From assembly GCF_001184025.1 (NCBI RefSeq), contig NZ_BBYG01000013.1, positions 186,001 through 250,000 on the forward strand: a stretch of DNA of 64,000 nucleotides, read 5' to 3'. This document shows positions 3,094 through 57,695 of this stretch, in pieces. The DNA comes from Streptomyces maremycinicus. Lineage in GTDB: Bacteria; Actinomycetota; Actinomycetes; Streptomycetales; Streptomycetaceae. The stretch's first letter is position 1. Every line of letters starts with the position of its first letter. Under the pieces are notes generated by a model, which was not told the origin of the DNA, did no database searches, and saw only the letters and a list, made by a program, of their open reading frames with translations. The translations under genes were made by a program, and so were the position numbers.

Positions 3094-3169
3094 GGCAACG
3101 AAGGAATCGCAGGCTTCACGGGGGTGTTCCCCGAGGAGTCGAAGGTGATCTCCGAGAGGGCGTGCGGGC

Positions 3170-35571: not shown

Positions 35572-35750
35572 GAAGGCACACCTTGATCGAACCAACTCTG
35601 CCTGACGCAGAGCTGGCGCGACCGTATGGCGGCCGGGACACCTCGTGCGGCGAGCACCGGCATCTACCGCAGCACGCGCAAGAGGACAGCTCTCGGCGCC
35701 CCCGCCCACCGGACGGGGTCGCGCTACCAGGCGGCAGAAAGGCACGGGCC

Positions 35751-37049
35751 GTGGCATCCACGGTCACCACCGAGCCGTCGAAGGACTCGTCGGCTCCCTC
35801 CCGCCCGGGATACGGACAGCTGCTGCGTACCCGCGGCGCCTGGACGTTCCTGCTGCCCGGCTTCGCCGCCCGTCAGCCCTTCGCGATGCTCACCATCTCC
35901 ATCGTGCTGCTCGTGCAGCACACCACCGGCTCGTACGGCGCGGCCGGTGCCGCCGCGGCCGTCACCGGTGTCTCCATGGCCCTGTGCGCGCCCTACAGCG
36001 GACGGCTCGCCGACCGCTACGGGCAGCGCGCGGTACTGATCCCCGGCGTGCTCCTGCACACGCTGTCGGGCCTCACCCTCACCGTCCTCGCCCTGACCCA
36101 CGCACCCCTGTGGACGGTGTTCGCGGCGGCCGTGCCCACGGGCGCCTCGGTCCCGCAGATCGGGCCCATGGTGCGCGCCCGCTGGGGTGCGCGGCTCAAG
36201 GGCTCGCCGCTGATGACCACCGCGGCGGCCTTCGAGTCCGTCACCGACGAGCTCACCTTCGTCTTCGGCCCGCTGCTGGCGACCGCCCTGTGCACCGCCG
36301 TGAACCCGGCCGCGGGCCTGGTCACCGAGGCCGCGCTGACCCTGCTCGGCGGCCTGCTGTTCGCCGCGCGCAAGAGCACGCAGCCCGAGGTCGCCGTCAC
36401 CGTCGCCGGGCACGCACGCGTGGAGCACGCCTCGGCTCTGCGCATCCCCGGTGTGCGCGTGCTGATCGTGGCCTTCCTGGGCATCGGCACCGTCTTCGGT
36501 GGCATGCAGGTCTCGCTGGCCGCGTTCACCGAGTCCATCGGCGAGCCCGGTCTGAACGGCGTCCTGTACGGCACCTTCGCCGCGGGCAACATGCTCTCCG
36601 GCCTGGTGTGCGGCGCCATCGCCTGGAAGGTCGCCCCGCGCCGGCGCCTGGTCGTCGCCTACGCCGCGCTGGCGCTCGTCGCCTCCGGCCTGTGGGCGGC
36701 CCACTCCGTGCTCGTCCTGGCGGGCCTGGGCCTCCTGGTCGGCATGTGCATCGCGCCCGCGCTGATCACCGGCTACACGCTGGTCGAGGAACTGGTCCCG
36801 GCCGGAGCCCGCACCGAGGCGTTCACCTGGCTGACGGGCGCGGTCGCGCTCGGGCAGGCGGCCGCCGTCACGATCGCCGGTCAGCTGGAGGACCGCTTCT
36901 GGGGCGGCGCCGGTTTCCTGGTCCCCATGGGGGGCACCGTGCTGGCCCTGGTGACCGTGCTGGCGCTGCGTTCACGGCTGGCGGCGCGCCCCCGCGCGCG
37001 TACCGTCGCACGTGGCGTCGGTCACCGCGTGCCGGTGACAGTGGACTGA
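35751..37049 (+). CDS. MFS transporter
   Basis: A 432-residue, 12-helix major facilitator. It begins VASTVTTEPSKDSSAPSR and then LLRTRGAWTFLLPGFAARQP leading into helix 1. The loop 2-3 motif is SGRLADRYGQRAVLI (about 84-98), matching the G-x-x-x-D-R-x-G-R pattern. The second half starts near residue 225 (RIPGVRVLIVAFLGIGTVFGG). GTG 35751 with AAAGG upstream is the likely start. The frame extends 56 residues further up to 35583, but those residues are hydrophilic and low-complexity. A dyad and -10-like box lie about 180 bases upstream. Substrate unknown; related proteins export sugars or drugs. Confidence 0.9.
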   Translation: MASTVTTEPSKDSSAPSRPGYGQLLRTRGAWTFLLPGFAARQPFAMLTISIVLLVQHTTGSYGAAGAAAAVTGVSMALCAPYSGRLADRYGQRAVLIPGVLLHTLSGLTLTVLALTHAPLWTVFAAAVPTGASVPQIGPMVRARWGARLKGSPLMTTAAAFESVTDELTFVFGPLLATALCTAVNPAAGLVTEAALTLLGGLLFAARKSTQPEVAVTVAGHARVEHASALRIPGVRVLIVAFLGIGTVFGGMQVSLAAFTESIGEPGLNGVLYGTFAAGNMLSGLVCGAIAWKVAPRRRLVVAYAALALVASGLWAAHSVLVLAGLGLLVGMCIAPALITGYTLVEELVPAGARTEAFTWLTGAVALGQAAAVTIAGQLEDRFWGGAGFLVPMGGTVLALVTVLALRSRLAARPRARTVARGVGHRVPVTVD

Positions 37050-37055
37050 TCCTCC

Positions 37056-37081
37056 GGAATACGTCAAGATAGACCGTCGTT
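37056..37081 (+). promoter_or_regulatory. SigR-type promoter of fmdB
   Basis: GGAAT at 37056-37060, exactly 18 bases, then GTT at 37079-37081. This fits the consensus of the thiol-oxidative-stress sigma factor SigR in Streptomyces (GGGAAT-N18-GTT). The expected transcription start is near 37088-37090, inside the CIRCE element. Confidence 0.75.
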
Positions 37082-37106
37082 AGCACTCACTGAGTGAGAG
37101 TGCCAG
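37080..37106. promoter_or_regulatory. CIRCE element (HrcA operator) in front of fmdB
   Basis: TTAGCACTC (37080-37088), nine bases, GAGTGCCAG (37098-37106). The consensus is TTAGCACTC-N9-GAGTGCTAA; 16 of 18 arm positions match, with the two differences in the last three bases of the right arm. It overlaps the predicted start point and ends one base before the AGGAGG ribosome site, the classical placement for HrcA repression. Confidence 0.85.
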
Positions 37107-37116
37107 GAGGAAGACA

Positions 37117-37437
37117 GTGCCGACCTACCAGTACCAGTGCACCGAGTGCGGCGAGGGCCTCGAGGCGGTGCAGAAGTTCACCGACGATGCCCTGACCGAG
37201 TGCCCCAACTGCGGTGGCCGCCTCAAGAAGGTGTTCTCCGCCGTCGGCATCGTCTTCAAGGGCTCCGGCTTCTACCGCAACGACAGCCGCGGCTCCTCGT
37301 CGAGCAGCTCGCCGGCGTCGTCCTCGAAGTCGTCGACGTCCGGATCCGACGCGAAGCCGTCGACCTCGACGTCCTCGTCCTCGGACTCGAAGTCGTCGAG
37401 CACCGGCACGTCGACCGGCAGCAGCTCAGCCGCGTAA
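37117..37437 (+). CDS. FmdB-family zinc-ribbon protein
   Basis: A 106-residue protein. Residues 1-53 are the FmdB/CxxC zinc ribbon: PTYQYQCTECGEGLEAVQKF and LTECPNCGGRLKKVFSAVGIVFKGSGFYRND, with two CxxC pairs (C8/C11 and C29/C32). The rest is a Ser-rich, Lys-containing disordered tail, long for the family. The start is GTG 37117 with an AGGAGG site. FmdB proteins are named after a regulator of formamidase/acetamidase, but the small zinc ribbon is widespread with no settled role. The CIRCE and SigR signals upstream indicate that this one is a stress-response protein, which its Cys pairs (redox-sensitive zinc) would suit. Confidence 0.9.
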   Translation: MPTYQYQCTECGEGLEAVQKFTDDALTECPNCGGRLKKVFSAVGIVFKGSGFYRNDSRGSSSSSSPASSSKSSTSGSDAKPSTSTSSSSDSKSSSTGTSTGSSSAA

Positions 37438-37498: not shown

Positions 37499-37513
37499 TT
37501 AGGGTGCGACGCA
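37499..37513 (+). promoter_or_regulatory. -10 element of a probably leaderless MTA phosphorylase transcript
   Basis: TTAGGGT (about 37499-37505) lies seven bases upstream of the ATG at 37513. A TAGGGT/TAnnnT -10 at this distance puts the transcription start at or next to the A of ATG, as in many Streptomyces leaderless mRNAs. Confidence 0.55.
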
Positions 37514-38355
37514 TGGCGAACAAGGCGAACGCAGAGATCGGTGTGATCGGCGGCTCCGGCTTCTATTCGTTTCTCGACCACGTGACCGAGCTCCAGGTCG
37601 ACACCCCGTACGGGCCGCCCAGCGACTCGCTCTTCCTAGGTGATATCGCCGGCCGGCGGGTGGCCTTCCTGCCCCGGCACGGACGCGGACACCATCTGCC
37701 GCCCCATCGGATCAACTACCGGGCCAACCTGTGGGCGCTGCGTTCGGTCGGCGCGCGCCAGGTCCTCGGTCCGTGTGCGGTGGGCGGTCTGCGCCCGGAG
37801 TACGGGCCCGGCACGCTGCTCGTGCCCGATCAGCTGGTCGACCGTACGAAGTCACGCATCGGTACGTACTTCGACGGGCTGCCCCTGCCCGACGGCAAGG
37901 TGCCCAACGTGGTGCACGTGTCCCTGGCCGACCCCTACTGCTCCGTGGGACGCTCGGCGGCGCTGAAGGCGGCGCGCGGCCGGGAGTGGGAGCCGGTGGA
38001 CGGCGGCACGCTCGTCGTGATCGAGGGGCCGCGGTTCTCCACCCGTGCCGAATCGTTGTGGCACCAGGCGCAGGGCTGGTCGGTGGTGGGCATGACCGGG
38101 CACCCGGAGGCCGCGCTCGCCCGCGAACTGGAGCTCTGCTACACGTCGTTGAACCTGGTCACCGATCTGGACGCGGGTGCCGAGAGCGGCGAGGGCGTGT
38201 CGCACGAGGAGGTGCTGCGGGTGTTCGCGGCGAACGTGGACCGGCTGCGGGGTGTGCTGTTCGACACGGTGGCCGCGCTGCCCTCCGACGGCGAGCGGGA
38301 CTGTCCGTGCGCGAACGCGCTGGGCGGGCTGGATCCGGGGTTCGAACTGCCTTAG
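37513..38355 (+). CDS. mtnP: S-methyl-5'-thioadenosine phosphorylase
   Basis: A 280-residue purine nucleoside phosphorylase of the MTAP family, which cleaves methylthioadenosine to adenine and methylthioribose-1-phosphate in the methionine-salvage and polyamine pathways. The N-terminal phosphate loop GVIGGSGFYSF (about 10-20) is followed by FLPRHGRGHHLPPHRINYRANLWAL (about 52-76), typical of MTAP. The nucleoside-binding part has IEGPRFSTRAESLWHQ (about 173-188), with GMTGHPEAALARELELCY after it. The ATG at 37513 is preferred over the GTG at 37504 because a -10 sits just upstream. Confidence 0.93.
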   Translation: MANKANAEIGVIGGSGFYSFLDHVTELQVDTPYGPPSDSLFLGDIAGRRVAFLPRHGRGHHLPPHRINYRANLWALRSVGARQVLGPCAVGGLRPEYGPGTLLVPDQLVDRTKSRIGTYFDGLPLPDGKVPNVVHVSLADPYCSVGRSAALKAARGREWEPVDGGTLVVIEGPRFSTRAESLWHQAQGWSVVGMTGHPEAALARELELCYTSLNLVTDLDAGAESGEGVSHEEVLRVFAANVDRLRGVLFDTVAALPSDGERDCPCANALGGLDPGFELP

Positions 38356-43912: not shown

Positions 43913-43939
43913 GGCCGCGCGGGAATTTTTCGCGCGGCC
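43913..43939 (+). terminator. Hairpin after the L,D-transpeptidase gene, overlapping a SigR-like -35
   Basis: GGCCGCGCG (43913-43921) and CGCGCGGCC (43931-43939) form a perfect nine-pair stem with a GGAATTTTT loop. It lies 45 bases after the stop. The loop contains most of the GGGAAT of the promoter described next, so the two signals overlap. Confidence 0.6.
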
Positions 43940-53877: not shown

Positions 53878-54831
53878 CTTACCAGCGTGCCTGGCCGCCG
53901 TGTCATATGCCAGGCGGGCGTGTGCGGCCGCAATTCCCGCCCAGCGGTGCCGACGGTCCGGCCGGAGCCGACGTGGATCAGCCCGAAGCCCACGTCAGCC
54001 CTCCCGGCGAGGACGACGGACAACCGGAGTCGACGCCAGACATCCCGGACCGACTCGAACCGCTCGGAACCGACATCAGTCCTTCCGGAGCCGACTCGAA
54101 CCACCCGAAACCCACGCCAGACATCCCGGCGGGGACGACGGACCGCCGCCCGAAGCCGACGTACGTCCTCCCCGAGCCGACGTCAGACCCCCGGCGGTGC
54201 CGTCGGACCACCCGGGTACGAAGAGGAGCCGGGCCCCGGCGCCTGGGGGGAGAGGCACCGAAGCCCGACTCGGGGAAAGTCCCGGCGCCGGGGGGATGTG
54301 CGTCGGGACTTGGCTCATGTGCGGCGAGGATGTCGGGAAGGGAAGGGGCTGCGAGGTCCGGCCGGTCCGAACTCCAGTTCCGACCCGGACTCCCGTGCCC
54401 AGAAGTCTTGTTCCCGCGCGCTTCCTCCTTGAAGCGGCGTTCCTGCGCCATGTTTGCGCGGCATCCACCACCCGGCGCACGCGGGCGGGAACCCGGCACC
54501 ACGGGCTGCCTGAAGCCCACTCGCCGCAGCTCCCGGCCGTCCCGCAGGCGCTCGAAAGGCTGCGCCACTCACGGCTGTCGCGGCATCTCCCCCGCAGCCA
54601 AAAGGCGTCCCCCGACGGGCCGTTGGCCGATCGGCCAACCACCTCGAAGGCCCCGAGCACCTACCAGCGAGCGCCATCCGCCCACGGACCGACCGGCCGA
54701 CGACTCACGCCGCACGACCCATGACCCATAACCCATGCCGGACGAACGACCCACGCCCGAAGGGCGATCCACGGACAAAGGGCGACCCACGGACGCCCCA
54801 AGACCGGCCACGGACCACCGACCCGCGCCGC

Positions 54832-54876: not shown

Positions 54877-55875
54877 TTACGCCGCCGCCTCGAAGCCCGT
54901 GTCACGGGCCAGCTTCTTCAGTTCCAGCAGGGCATGCTTCTCGATCTGACGGATGCGCTCGCGCGTCAGACCGTGTTCCTTGCCGACCTCGGTCAGGGTG
55001 CGCTCGCGGCCGTCGTCGATGCCGTACCGCATCTTGATGATGGAGGCCGTGCGCGGCTCGAGGCGGTCGATCAGGCCGTCCAGTTCCTCACTGCGCAGCA
55101 GGGTCAGGACGGACTGCTCCGGCGAGACCGCGGAGGTGTCCTCCAGCAGGTCGCCGAACTGGGTCTCCCCCTGGTCGTCGACCGCCATGTTGAGCGAGAC
55201 CGGGTCGCGGGCCCAGTCCAGGACGTCCGTGACGCGCGCCGGCGTGGAACCGAGTTCGGTCGCGATCTCCGCGGGCTCCGGGTCGCGGCCGTTCTCACGG
55301 TTGAACTCGCGCTGCACACGACGGATCCGGCCGAGCTCCTCCACCAGGTGGACGGGCAGACGGATCGTGCGCGACTGGTCCGCTATCGAGCGGGTGATGG
55401 CCTGACGGATCCACCAGGTCGCGTACGTGGAGAACTTGAAGCCCTTGCGGTAGTCGAACTTCTCGACCGCGCGGACCAGGCCGGCGTTGCCCTCCTGGAT
55501 GAGGTCGAGGAGCGGCAGACCGCTGCGGGGGTAGCGGCGGGCCACCGCGACGACCAGCCGGAGGTTGGAACGGATGAAGACGTCCTTCGCCCGCTCGCTC
55601 TCGGCGACCAGGGCCTCGAGTTCCTCGCGCGAGGCTTCCGCCCTGGACTCCTCGTCACCGTCGAGGACCTGCTGTGCGAACACACCGGCCTCGATGATCT
55701 GGGACAACTCGACTTCCTTGGCGGCGTCGAGCAGAGGTGTACGCGCGATTTCGTCGAGGTACATGCCGACCAGGTCGCGGTCGGCGATCTCGCCGCCATG
55801 GGCGCGAACACTGCGGGCCGCGTCGGTCGTCTCGCCGTTGGCGGACTTGCGACGGGCGACGGCACGGGTTGCCAT
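54877..55875 (-). CDS. hrdD: Group 2 (principal-like) sigma factor HrdD
   Basis: A 332-residue sigma-70 protein of the Streptomyces Hrd series. Region 1.2 starts at about 38 (DLVGMYLDEIARTPLL), region 2 contains NLRLVVAVARRYPRSGLPLLDLIQEGNAGLVRAVEKFDY and the -10 recognition helix FKFSTYATWWIRQAI (about 140-154). Region 3 is VEELGRIRRVQREFNREN, and region 4 has LTEVGKEHGLTRERIRQIEKHAL (about 295-317). Length and the absence of a long region 1.1 match HrdD of Streptomyces (HrdB is much longer). It recognises HrdB-like promoters but is dispensable. The ATG at 55875 is used; the frame to 56127 is not family-like. A SigR promoter is upstream. Confidence 0.92.
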   Translation of the reverse strand: MATRAVARRKSANGETTDAARSVRAHGGEIADRDLVGMYLDEIARTPLLDAAKEVELSQIIEAGVFAQQVLDGDEESRAEASREELEALVAESERAKDVFIRSNLRLVVAVARRYPRSGLPLLDLIQEGNAGLVRAVEKFDYRKGFKFSTYATWWIRQAITRSIADQSRTIRLPVHLVEELGRIRRVQREFNRENGRDPEPAEIATELGSTPARVTDVLDWARDPVSLNMAVDDQGETQFGDLLEDTSAVSPEQSVLTLLRSEELDGLIDRLEPRTASIIKMRYGIDDGRERTLTEVGKEHGLTRERIRQIEKHALLELKKLARDTGFEAAA

Positions 55876-55973
55876 GCGTGCTCCCTTGCGATGGAGGTTC
55901 AGCGGGTGGCCCTTCAGACACCAGGCACTCTCGGACTCGGACTCTCCTCGGGTGCCCTGCATCTGATGGAAAC

Positions 55974-56000
55974 AACGACTGGAATCAGGACAGAATTCCC
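55974..56000 (-). promoter_or_regulatory. SigR-type promoter of hrdD
   Basis: On the minus strand GGGAAT (56000 down to 55995), exactly 18 bases, then GTTGTT (from 55976). It is a full match to the SigR consensus GGGAAT-N18-GTT and lies 99 bases upstream of the hrdD ATG. SigR control of hrdD is established in S. coelicolor. Confidence 0.85.
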
Positions 56001-56059
56001 AACCCGCACCCCGATTTTTATGATCTTGCAGTACCCTGTCCGACCACCGAGGAGGCGTG

Positions 56060-56599
56060 ATGTCGTCGGAACGTACAGAGGTGCAGGTCAGGCCAGGAGT
56101 CGAGGGTGACCTCGAAGCTCTCACCAACCTCTACAACCACTACGTACGTGAGACGCCCATCACGTTCGACACGGTGCCCTTCAGTCCGGAAGAGCGACGT
56201 CCTTGGCTGCTCTCCCACCCTGAAGACGGGCCGCACCGTCTGATGGTTGCCACGGAAGCGGACTCACAGGACATCCGGGGGACCTCACAGGAAATCCTGG
56301 GGTACGCCACATCCAGCGCTTACCGGCCGAAGGCGGCCTACTCCACGTCGGTGGAGGTGACGGTCTACGTCGCCCCGCACGCCGGCGGGCGCGGCATCGG
56401 CACGCTCCTCTACAAGGCGCTCTTCGAGGCGCTGGCCGGGGAGGACCTGCACCGCGCCTACGCGGGGATCGCGCAACCGAACGAAGCGTCCGCGCGGCTG
56501 CACGAACGCTTCGGTTTCCGGCACGTGGGCACGTACCGCGAGGTGGGCCGTAAGTTCGGCCGCTACTGGGACGTGGCCTGGTACGAGAAGGACCTCTGA
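56060..56599 (+). CDS. Phosphinothricin-type GNAT acetyltransferase
   Basis: A 179-residue acetyltransferase of the Pat/Bar group. It has IxNLYNHYVRETPITFDTVPFS (about 24-44), VTVYVAPHAGGRGIGTLLYKAL (about 102-123) as the acetyl-CoA motif, and IAQPNEASARLHERFGFRHVGTYREVGRKFGRYWDVAWYEKDL (the typical Pat end with the Tyr-Arg-Glu-Val-Gly-x-Lys motif). A GAGGAGG ribosome site is only four bases before the ATG at 56060 (GTG 56057 is the alternative). Relatives acetylate phosphinothricin, methionine sulfone or amino acids; the substrate here is not known. It is divergent from hrdD. Confidence 0.92.
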   Translation: MSSERTEVQVRPGVEGDLEALTNLYNHYVRETPITFDTVPFSPEERRPWLLSHPEDGPHRLMVATEADSQDIRGTSQEILGYATSSAYRPKAAYSTSVEVTVYVAPHAGGRGIGTLLYKALFEALAGEDLHRAYAGIAQPNEASARLHERFGFRHVGTYREVGRKFGRYWDVAWYEKDL

Positions 56600-57639: not shown

Positions 57640-57695
57640 TTGAAATCTAAAACGTCAACATCGCTCAGCCTATTCCCGATTGGTTTAAATTTCAA
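57640..57695. promoter_or_regulatory. Candidate MarR operator between LigB and marR genes
   Basis: TTGAAATCTAAA (about 57640-57651) and TTTAAATTTCAA (about 57684-57695) are inverted copies with 11 of 12 bases matching. The second arm ends about 25 bases before the marR start and is followed by GGAG. AT-rich dyads of this type are typical MarR sites. Confidence 0.65.

Follow-up and report, generated by a model that had tools for sequence, protein, structure and literature searches.

The window analyzed in this study is a 64-kb stretch of the Streptomyces maremycinicus genome, and the locus of interest is a short gap between two co-directional reading frames on its forward strand. The upstream ORF (35583-37049, +) has an uncertain start and ends with a stop codon at 37047-37049; a Pfam scan of its part 35780-37046 gave no match. 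The gap is followed by fmdB/ruc (37117-37437, +), which starts with a GTG codon at 37117 and encodes a zinc-ribbon protein of 106 amino acids, and further downstream by a co-directional gene for S-methyl-5'-thioadenosine phosphorylase (37504-38355, +; NF005876, 445.7 bits). Only 67 bp separate the upstream stop codon from the fmdB GTG, and both sites described below are held in this gap. The first is a SigR-type promoter, with the -35 element GGAAT read in the sequence at 37056-37060 (+), 6 nt past the upstream stop codon, and the -10 element GTT at 37079-37081 (+), 18 nt past GGAAT and at a distance of 35 nt from the GTG start codon. The second is CIRCE, the predicted HrcA operator TTAGCACTC-N9-GAGTGCCAG (37080-37106, no strand assigned), in which TTAGCACTC occupies 37080-37088, the 9-base spacer 37089-37097 and GAGTGCCAG 37098-37106. 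In comparison to the consensus TTAGCACTC-N9-GAGTGCTAA, 2 of the 18 arm positions differ. The first-pass annotation of this DNA had placed GGAAT-N18-GTT at 37056-37081 and a CIRCE with 16 of 18 matching arm positions at 37080-37106, and both were found exactly there. It had also described the two as directly abutting; they are indeed adjacent, but the -10 triplet and CIRCE have the bases 37080-37081 in common, so that the sites overlap by 2 bp rather than merely abut.

CIRCE thus spans the end of the -10 element and the expected transcription start. At its other end it reaches the ribosome-binding site AGGAGGA (37105-37111, +), which shares the final two bases of CIRCE (37105-37106) and is conserved in the alignment. 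A separate promoter within the 67-bp gap was considered and set aside, as there is little room for it with the -35 element only 6 nt past the upstream stop codon. A conserved block further upstream in the locus alignment was found to be the end of the upstream ORF.

The fmdB product matches the FmdB family models TIGR02605 (75 bits, cut-off 31.3) and PF09723 (58.1 bits, cut-off 34.4). Its cysteines at positions 8, 11, 29 and 32 form two CxxC pairs (8/11 and 29/32) and are invariant in 19 aligned proteins, and the protein ends in a Ser/Thr-rich tail in which 33 of the final 49 residues are Ser or Thr. The structure model contains no helix or strand past residue 40 and is of low confidence throughout (mean pLDDT 55.9); no relatives of the protein were found in the PDB at E <=0.1. 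The regulators expected to act on the two sites are encoded in the same genome. HrcA was identified by TIGR00331 (340.5 bits), as the sole match over the cut-off, and SigR by TIGR02947 (SigH_actino, 360.5 bits), as the sole one of 31 matches over the cut-off. Since the genome's own SigR matches the NCBI SigH_actino model, SigR can be taken as the Streptomyces counterpart of SigH. The genome has a second FmdB-type gene (locus L007, C20:86627-86770), whose product of 73 aa has a glycine/cysteine-rich tail. The same control for this paralogue was considered and rejected, as L007 has neither a CIRCE (<=3 mismatches) nor an exact SigR box nearby.

CIRCE is a rare element in this genome. With <=3 mismatches allowed, the 64-kb window gave one match and 100 shuffles gave none, and the complete 8.72-Mb genome gave five places, the reversed control pattern being absent. 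Of these five sites, groES and a lone groEL are each preceded by two and fmdB by one (groES at locus L001 was judged by eye from its ORF, and groEL at L003 is Cpn60 with a Pfam score of 156.7 bits). In its arms, the fmdB CIRCE agrees with the groES and groEL operators. HrcA is known to control both groES-groEL1 and groEL2 in Streptomyces (PMC2687793), and fmdB has the same operator, in the same genome, as this regulon. On the other hand, the groES-groEL1 and groEL2 regions have two CIRCE copies each, whereas fmdB has a single one fused to a SigR-type box.

The SigR-type box is more frequent. The fmdB box agrees exactly, in sequence and in spacing, with the Streptomyces SigR consensus GGAAT-N18-GTT (PMC2375139). 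The genome has 83 exact occurrences of this pattern as against 7 of the reversed control, so that the box by itself is only modest evidence. This abundance of the lone box is what would favor a chance placing of two functionless motif-like strings side by side. Against this, the expected number of SigR-like GTT triplets lying no more than 3 bp from one of the three CIRCE regions is only about 0.0001. The composite is carried by 279 of the 295 genus genomes, and the control gave no match in 296 genomes of the class. The probability of chance placement is thus close to nil, and conservation refutes it.

As an observation apart from the fmdB locus, the window, which is not a random choice, contains five exact GGAAT-N18-GTT sequences in 64 kb including the one at 37056, against about 0.6 expected from the 83 in the genome. 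The four others lie at 3103 (+), 41 nt before a 401-aa ORF; at 43922 (+), 31 nt before a 389-aa ORF without Pfam match; at 55999 (-), close to the 5' end of a sigma-70-type ORF; and at 57676 (-), upstream of a LigB-type dioxygenase ORF. The window also holds a primary-type sigma factor gene (54877-56127, -) with the Pfam sigma-70 regions 1.2, 2, 3 and 4, which presumably resembles hrdD, and about 0.6 kb from it an Rfam match to Scr3202 (82.6 bits; 54222-54313, -).

Conservation of both boxes upstream of fmdB in other Streptomyces, which the first-pass annotation had named as support for its proposal, was observed in most of the genus. When anchored to the fmdB start, the exact composite is present in 279 of 295 genus genomes (274 of the 288 more complete ones) and the control gave 0 matches, which confirms the SigR and CIRCE composite as real. 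A looser count with <=2 mismatches (286/295) was dropped, as groEL2-type promoters also match at 2 mismatches. Among 80 named loci, 78 have the register of the window, and the SigR box is perfect, with N18, in 73; the two loci of other register belong to Actinomadura and to a Friedmanniella MAG, and both carry CIRCE. All 8 bases of the SigR box are invariant in 93 aligned sequences, which proves little because these sequences were selected for carrying those bases.

The 16 genomes without the exact composite are informative as to which of the two sites is the more constant. Four of them gave no match to the FmdB protein, two of these being nominally complete, and the gene is present in the other 12. 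CIRCE is kept in all 12, with two mismatches each as in the window, so the loss of both boxes with retention of the gene, which the annotation had listed as evidence against itself, was not seen in the genus. In three of these 12 genomes a perfect SigR box lies one base further away from CIRCE; in the others the box is spaced by 19 (one genome), altered by one mismatch (three), or degraded or absent at the -35 element (five). At the loci L181, L182, L186 and L187 a common altered stretch (GGCACAGGTTAGTATGGACGATCGTT and similar) replaces the SigR -35 element while CIRCE is intact; judged by their sequences, these may be natural Streptomyces strains in which SigR control has been lost.

Outside the genus, the two sites were examined in 60 loci from 54 genera, taken from the better-scoring of the listed orthologue matches, so that weakly scoring families are under-represented. 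An fmdB orthologue was found in 285 of 296 genomes of the class. CIRCE (<=4 mismatches, within 250 bp) is present in 55 of the 60 sampled loci as against 1 of 1200 shuffles, and was absent at this threshold from five (L031, L036, L046, L059 and L080). A box GGAA-N19-GTT close before CIRCE (offset -3 to 30) was found in only 10 of the 60 loci, again against 1 of 1200 shuffles, and the 45 loci with CIRCE but no strict adjacent SigR box, weaker boxes being uncounted, indicate that the double gate is not universal. CIRCE before fmdB is therefore near-constant in this sample, and the SigR-type box is confined to certain lineages, where its distance from CIRCE varies. In genera other than Streptomyces and Mycobacterium, GCAGTC often takes the place of GCACTC as the left arm of the fmdB CIRCE (among the loci L028-L087, for example L047 and L054), a one-sided change which is common to many families.

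A pattern search over the whole class gave SigR and CIRCE together in 62 of 296 genomes, with 0 for the control. In 56 genomes the composite stands before fmdB, comprising all 28 of the window's genus (its own genome included), all 17 of genus g4 and 11 others. The strict class pattern was present in at least 134 of the 296 genomes, which is a lower bound as the pattern omits mycobacterial GCACTT arms and spacings outside 8-38 nt. The genus g4 can be assigned to Mycobacterium from its PE-domain counts and the common genus label: PE-domain matches occur in 17 of 17 genomes, with 1 to 106 each. The weight of the counts lies on three genomes that have 72 to 106, since sister genera have 0 to 2 matches, the only match in one of the g4 genomes is weak (E 4e-6) and the E. 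coli control also matched. The first base of CIRCE follows the first base of GTT at an offset of 1 bp in Streptomyces and g73, 3 in g4, 7 in f18 and g79, and 24 or 25 in f14 and f17. The six remaining composites are located elsewhere, four of them before hsp20-like genes, one before a clgR-like gene and one antisense beside a groES-like frame (L173, by eye). At L174-L177, in other actinobacteria, a SigR-type box with CIRCE immediately after it precedes Hsp20-like small heat-shock genes, so that this fused design is found apart from fmdB as well; the Hsp20 identity was confirmed by Pfam at L176 and judged by eye at L175 and L177, and a 95-residue piece of L174 gave no match. At L178 (G167) a SigR-type box and a CIRCE-like repeat precede a ClgR-like regulator, so named by eye, Pfam giving only a helix-turn-helix.

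Within the operator, the left CIRCE arm and the spacer, which has GAGTG, form a second, nested inverted repeat, CACTCA-c-TGAGTG (37084-37096, no strand assigned), and related forms of it are present in many of the listed Streptomyces, some lacking it with both arms intact. An RNA role of the leader could be proposed from this arrangement, in which the nested-repeat hairpin beside the ribosome-binding site would set translation or mRNA stability and HrcA would not bind at all; the second repeat formed by spacer and left arm, and the extension of CIRCE into the ribosome-binding site, agree with such a role. However, a transcript starting 5-10 nt past the GTT would probably omit part of the left arm, both arms are kept in genomes whose spacers have no nested repeat (G379, G408 and G472), the arms match the groES and groEL operators of the same genome, and the spacers outside the genus vary widely. 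We consider an RNA role in place of HrcA binding very improbable.

The observed constancy of CIRCE gives more weight to another alternative, namely that CIRCE alone matters. In that case fmdB would be an ordinary gene of the HrcA regulon, transcribed from some other promoter or by read-through from upstream, and the SigR-type box would be minor or silent. The retention of CIRCE in 12 of 12 gene-bearing Streptomyces misses, when the SigR box is degraded or lost in 5 of the 12, agrees with this, as do the counts outside the genus (CIRCE in 55 of 60 loci, a strict SigR box close before it in 10 of 60) and the co-directional upstream ORF which ends just 67 bp before the fmdB start. But the exact GGAAT-N18-GTT is held in a fixed register in 279 of 295 genomes, and the related mycobacterial gene Rv0991c is listed as strongly SigH-dependent (PMC4803200). 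A silent SigR-type box therefore appears unlikely, and control of fmdB through both sites is preferred.

The closest known system is that of Mycobacterium tuberculosis. Rv0991c, named Ruc, is repressed by HrcA and induced by SigH, whose binding sequences overlap each other (Becker et al. 2020, PMC7448276). In a table on SigH-dependent transcription it has a value of 40.3 +/- 12.2 (PMC4803200). Ruc binds one zinc via its cysteines and loses it on oxidation, on which it gains chaperone activity and aids Hsp70; the cysteine mutants described are C8, C11, C29 and C32 (PMC7448276). The fmdB product has the same four cysteines, at 8, 11, 29 and 32, in its zinc ribbon, and the FmdB proteins of the g4 genomes carry the same N-terminus. 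Moreover, Ruc has an unstructured C-terminal half (PMC7448276) and is termed a 'conserved serine rich protein' (PMC4803200), in comparison to the Ser/Thr-rich tail found here. A further likeness exists with Hsp33, which has a four-cysteine zinc site, frees the zinc on oxidation and then becomes a holding chaperone, as compared with Ruc in PMC7448276; Hsp33 is a different protein family, treated apart from Ruc in that paper, and no membership is claimed. The equivalence with Ruc rests on its published description and on the mycobacterial g4 genomes rather than on a named M. tuberculosis sequence.

The promoters are likewise similar, with HrcA and sigma factor sites that overlap in M. tuberculosis and predicted sites that overlap at fmdB. 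They differ in register: in the 17 putative Mycobacterium (g4) genomes CIRCE begins 3 bp past the first base of GTT and has the left arm GCACTT, whereas here the distance is 1 bp and the arm GCACTC. M. tuberculosis ruc has a second transcription start 19 nt further up (PMC7448276), whereas here only 6 nt lie between the -35 element and the upstream stop codon. It also forms an operon with Rv0990c (PMC8557902), whereas the gene downstream of fmdB is that of methylthioadenosine phosphorylase.

These likenesses bear upon the claims of the first-pass annotation. Its proposal that SigR activates and HrcA represses a zinc ribbon of the chaperone network fits with our computed results and with Rv0991c/Ruc as described in PMC7448276, and so finds good support, its binding and induction steps in Streptomyces being predicted by orthology. 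Its remark that no CIRCE-controlled FmdB had been described, on the other hand, fails in substance, as HrcA control of Ruc/Rv0991c is published and the mechanism is known from M. tuberculosis (PMC7448276). The link is hidden by different names, since PMC7448276, in the part of its text available, uses neither the word CIRCE nor FmdB, and the literature search gave no paper with both 'FmdB' and 'HrcA'. A Streptomyces SigR promoter with CIRCE across its -10 element was not found in the literature searched, including the available parts of PMC2687793, PMC8223512, PMC3489674 and PMC4803200; the main SigR target lists lay outside this search and may well contain the gene. Streptomyces literature joining SigR with HrcA or with FmdB was not found either. 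From mscL being SCO3190 (PMC10117811) and the gene order of the window, we infer that the S. coelicolor gene is SCO3187, and no paper naming SCO3187 was found in the literature search.

Taken together, the site is in all likelihood a promoter gated by HrcA and SigR that drives the Streptomyces orthologue of Ruc (Rv0991c), and its product is very probably, by analogy, a redox-activated zinc-ribbon chaperone. The direct basis for this consists of the two sites, their fusion, their conservation, the family membership of the protein and the presence of the HrcA and SigR genes. The anti-sigma factor RsrA holds SigR, and the titration of GroEL is the switch of HrcA. In unstressed cells, HrcA bound to CIRCE would cover the end of the -10 element and the expected start and would shut out RNA polymerase, and SigR would be kept inactive by RsrA. 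Thiol stress would free SigR, which could then recognize GGAAT-N18-GTT, and unfolded protein, arising from heat or oxidative damage, would draw GroEL off HrcA, on which HrcA would leave CIRCE. As the sites overlap, SigR-polymerase and HrcA would compete for the same DNA, and strong expression would require the two signals together or one of them in large excess. FmdB would be made in a reduced, zinc-bound form; under continued oxidation its four cysteines would lose the zinc and form disulfides, and the protein would then hold unfolded proteins for DnaK. Repression, induction, competition and chaperone activity are here carried over from M. tuberculosis. The relation of RsrA and SigR is also described in PMC4921905. 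M. tuberculosis that lacks only HrcA already makes a high level of Ruc, to which heat adds more (PMC7448276), and the need for both signals may thus be too strong a statement. The repressor is by this evidence the dominant lock in that organism, and by analogy it is expected to be so in Streptomyces too.

The mechanism of overlapping HrcA and SigH sites is already known from M. tuberculosis Ruc (PMC7448276). What is apparently new is the genus-wide fixation of the composite, the role of CIRCE as its constant part and the repeated occurrence of SigR boxes next to CIRCE at differing distances, also before hsp20-like and clgR-like genes. It is tentatively suggested that the fused SigR/HrcA gate is no single heritage of mycobacteria but evolved on several occasions among actinobacteria. 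CIRCE before fmdB/ruc would be the old constant, to which SigR-type boxes were added at 1, 3, 7 and 24-25 bp, in Streptomyces and Mycobacterium, in further families, and at hsp20-like and clgR-like genes; we hold this as a real possibility that falls somewhat short of being probable. If such repeated gain is true, selection would keep the overlap itself, tying expression to thiol stress and protein unfolding together.

Our study links the annotation 'FmdB family zinc ribbon' to a chaperone already known to be activated by oxidation, and the regulation that it predicts is clear and testable in a genus that is harmless and genetically tractable. Further, HrcA appears to be the near-constant half of the double control across the class, and SigR/SigH the half found in some lineages only. 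Which half of the control is constant is a question that goes beyond the single published case of Ruc.
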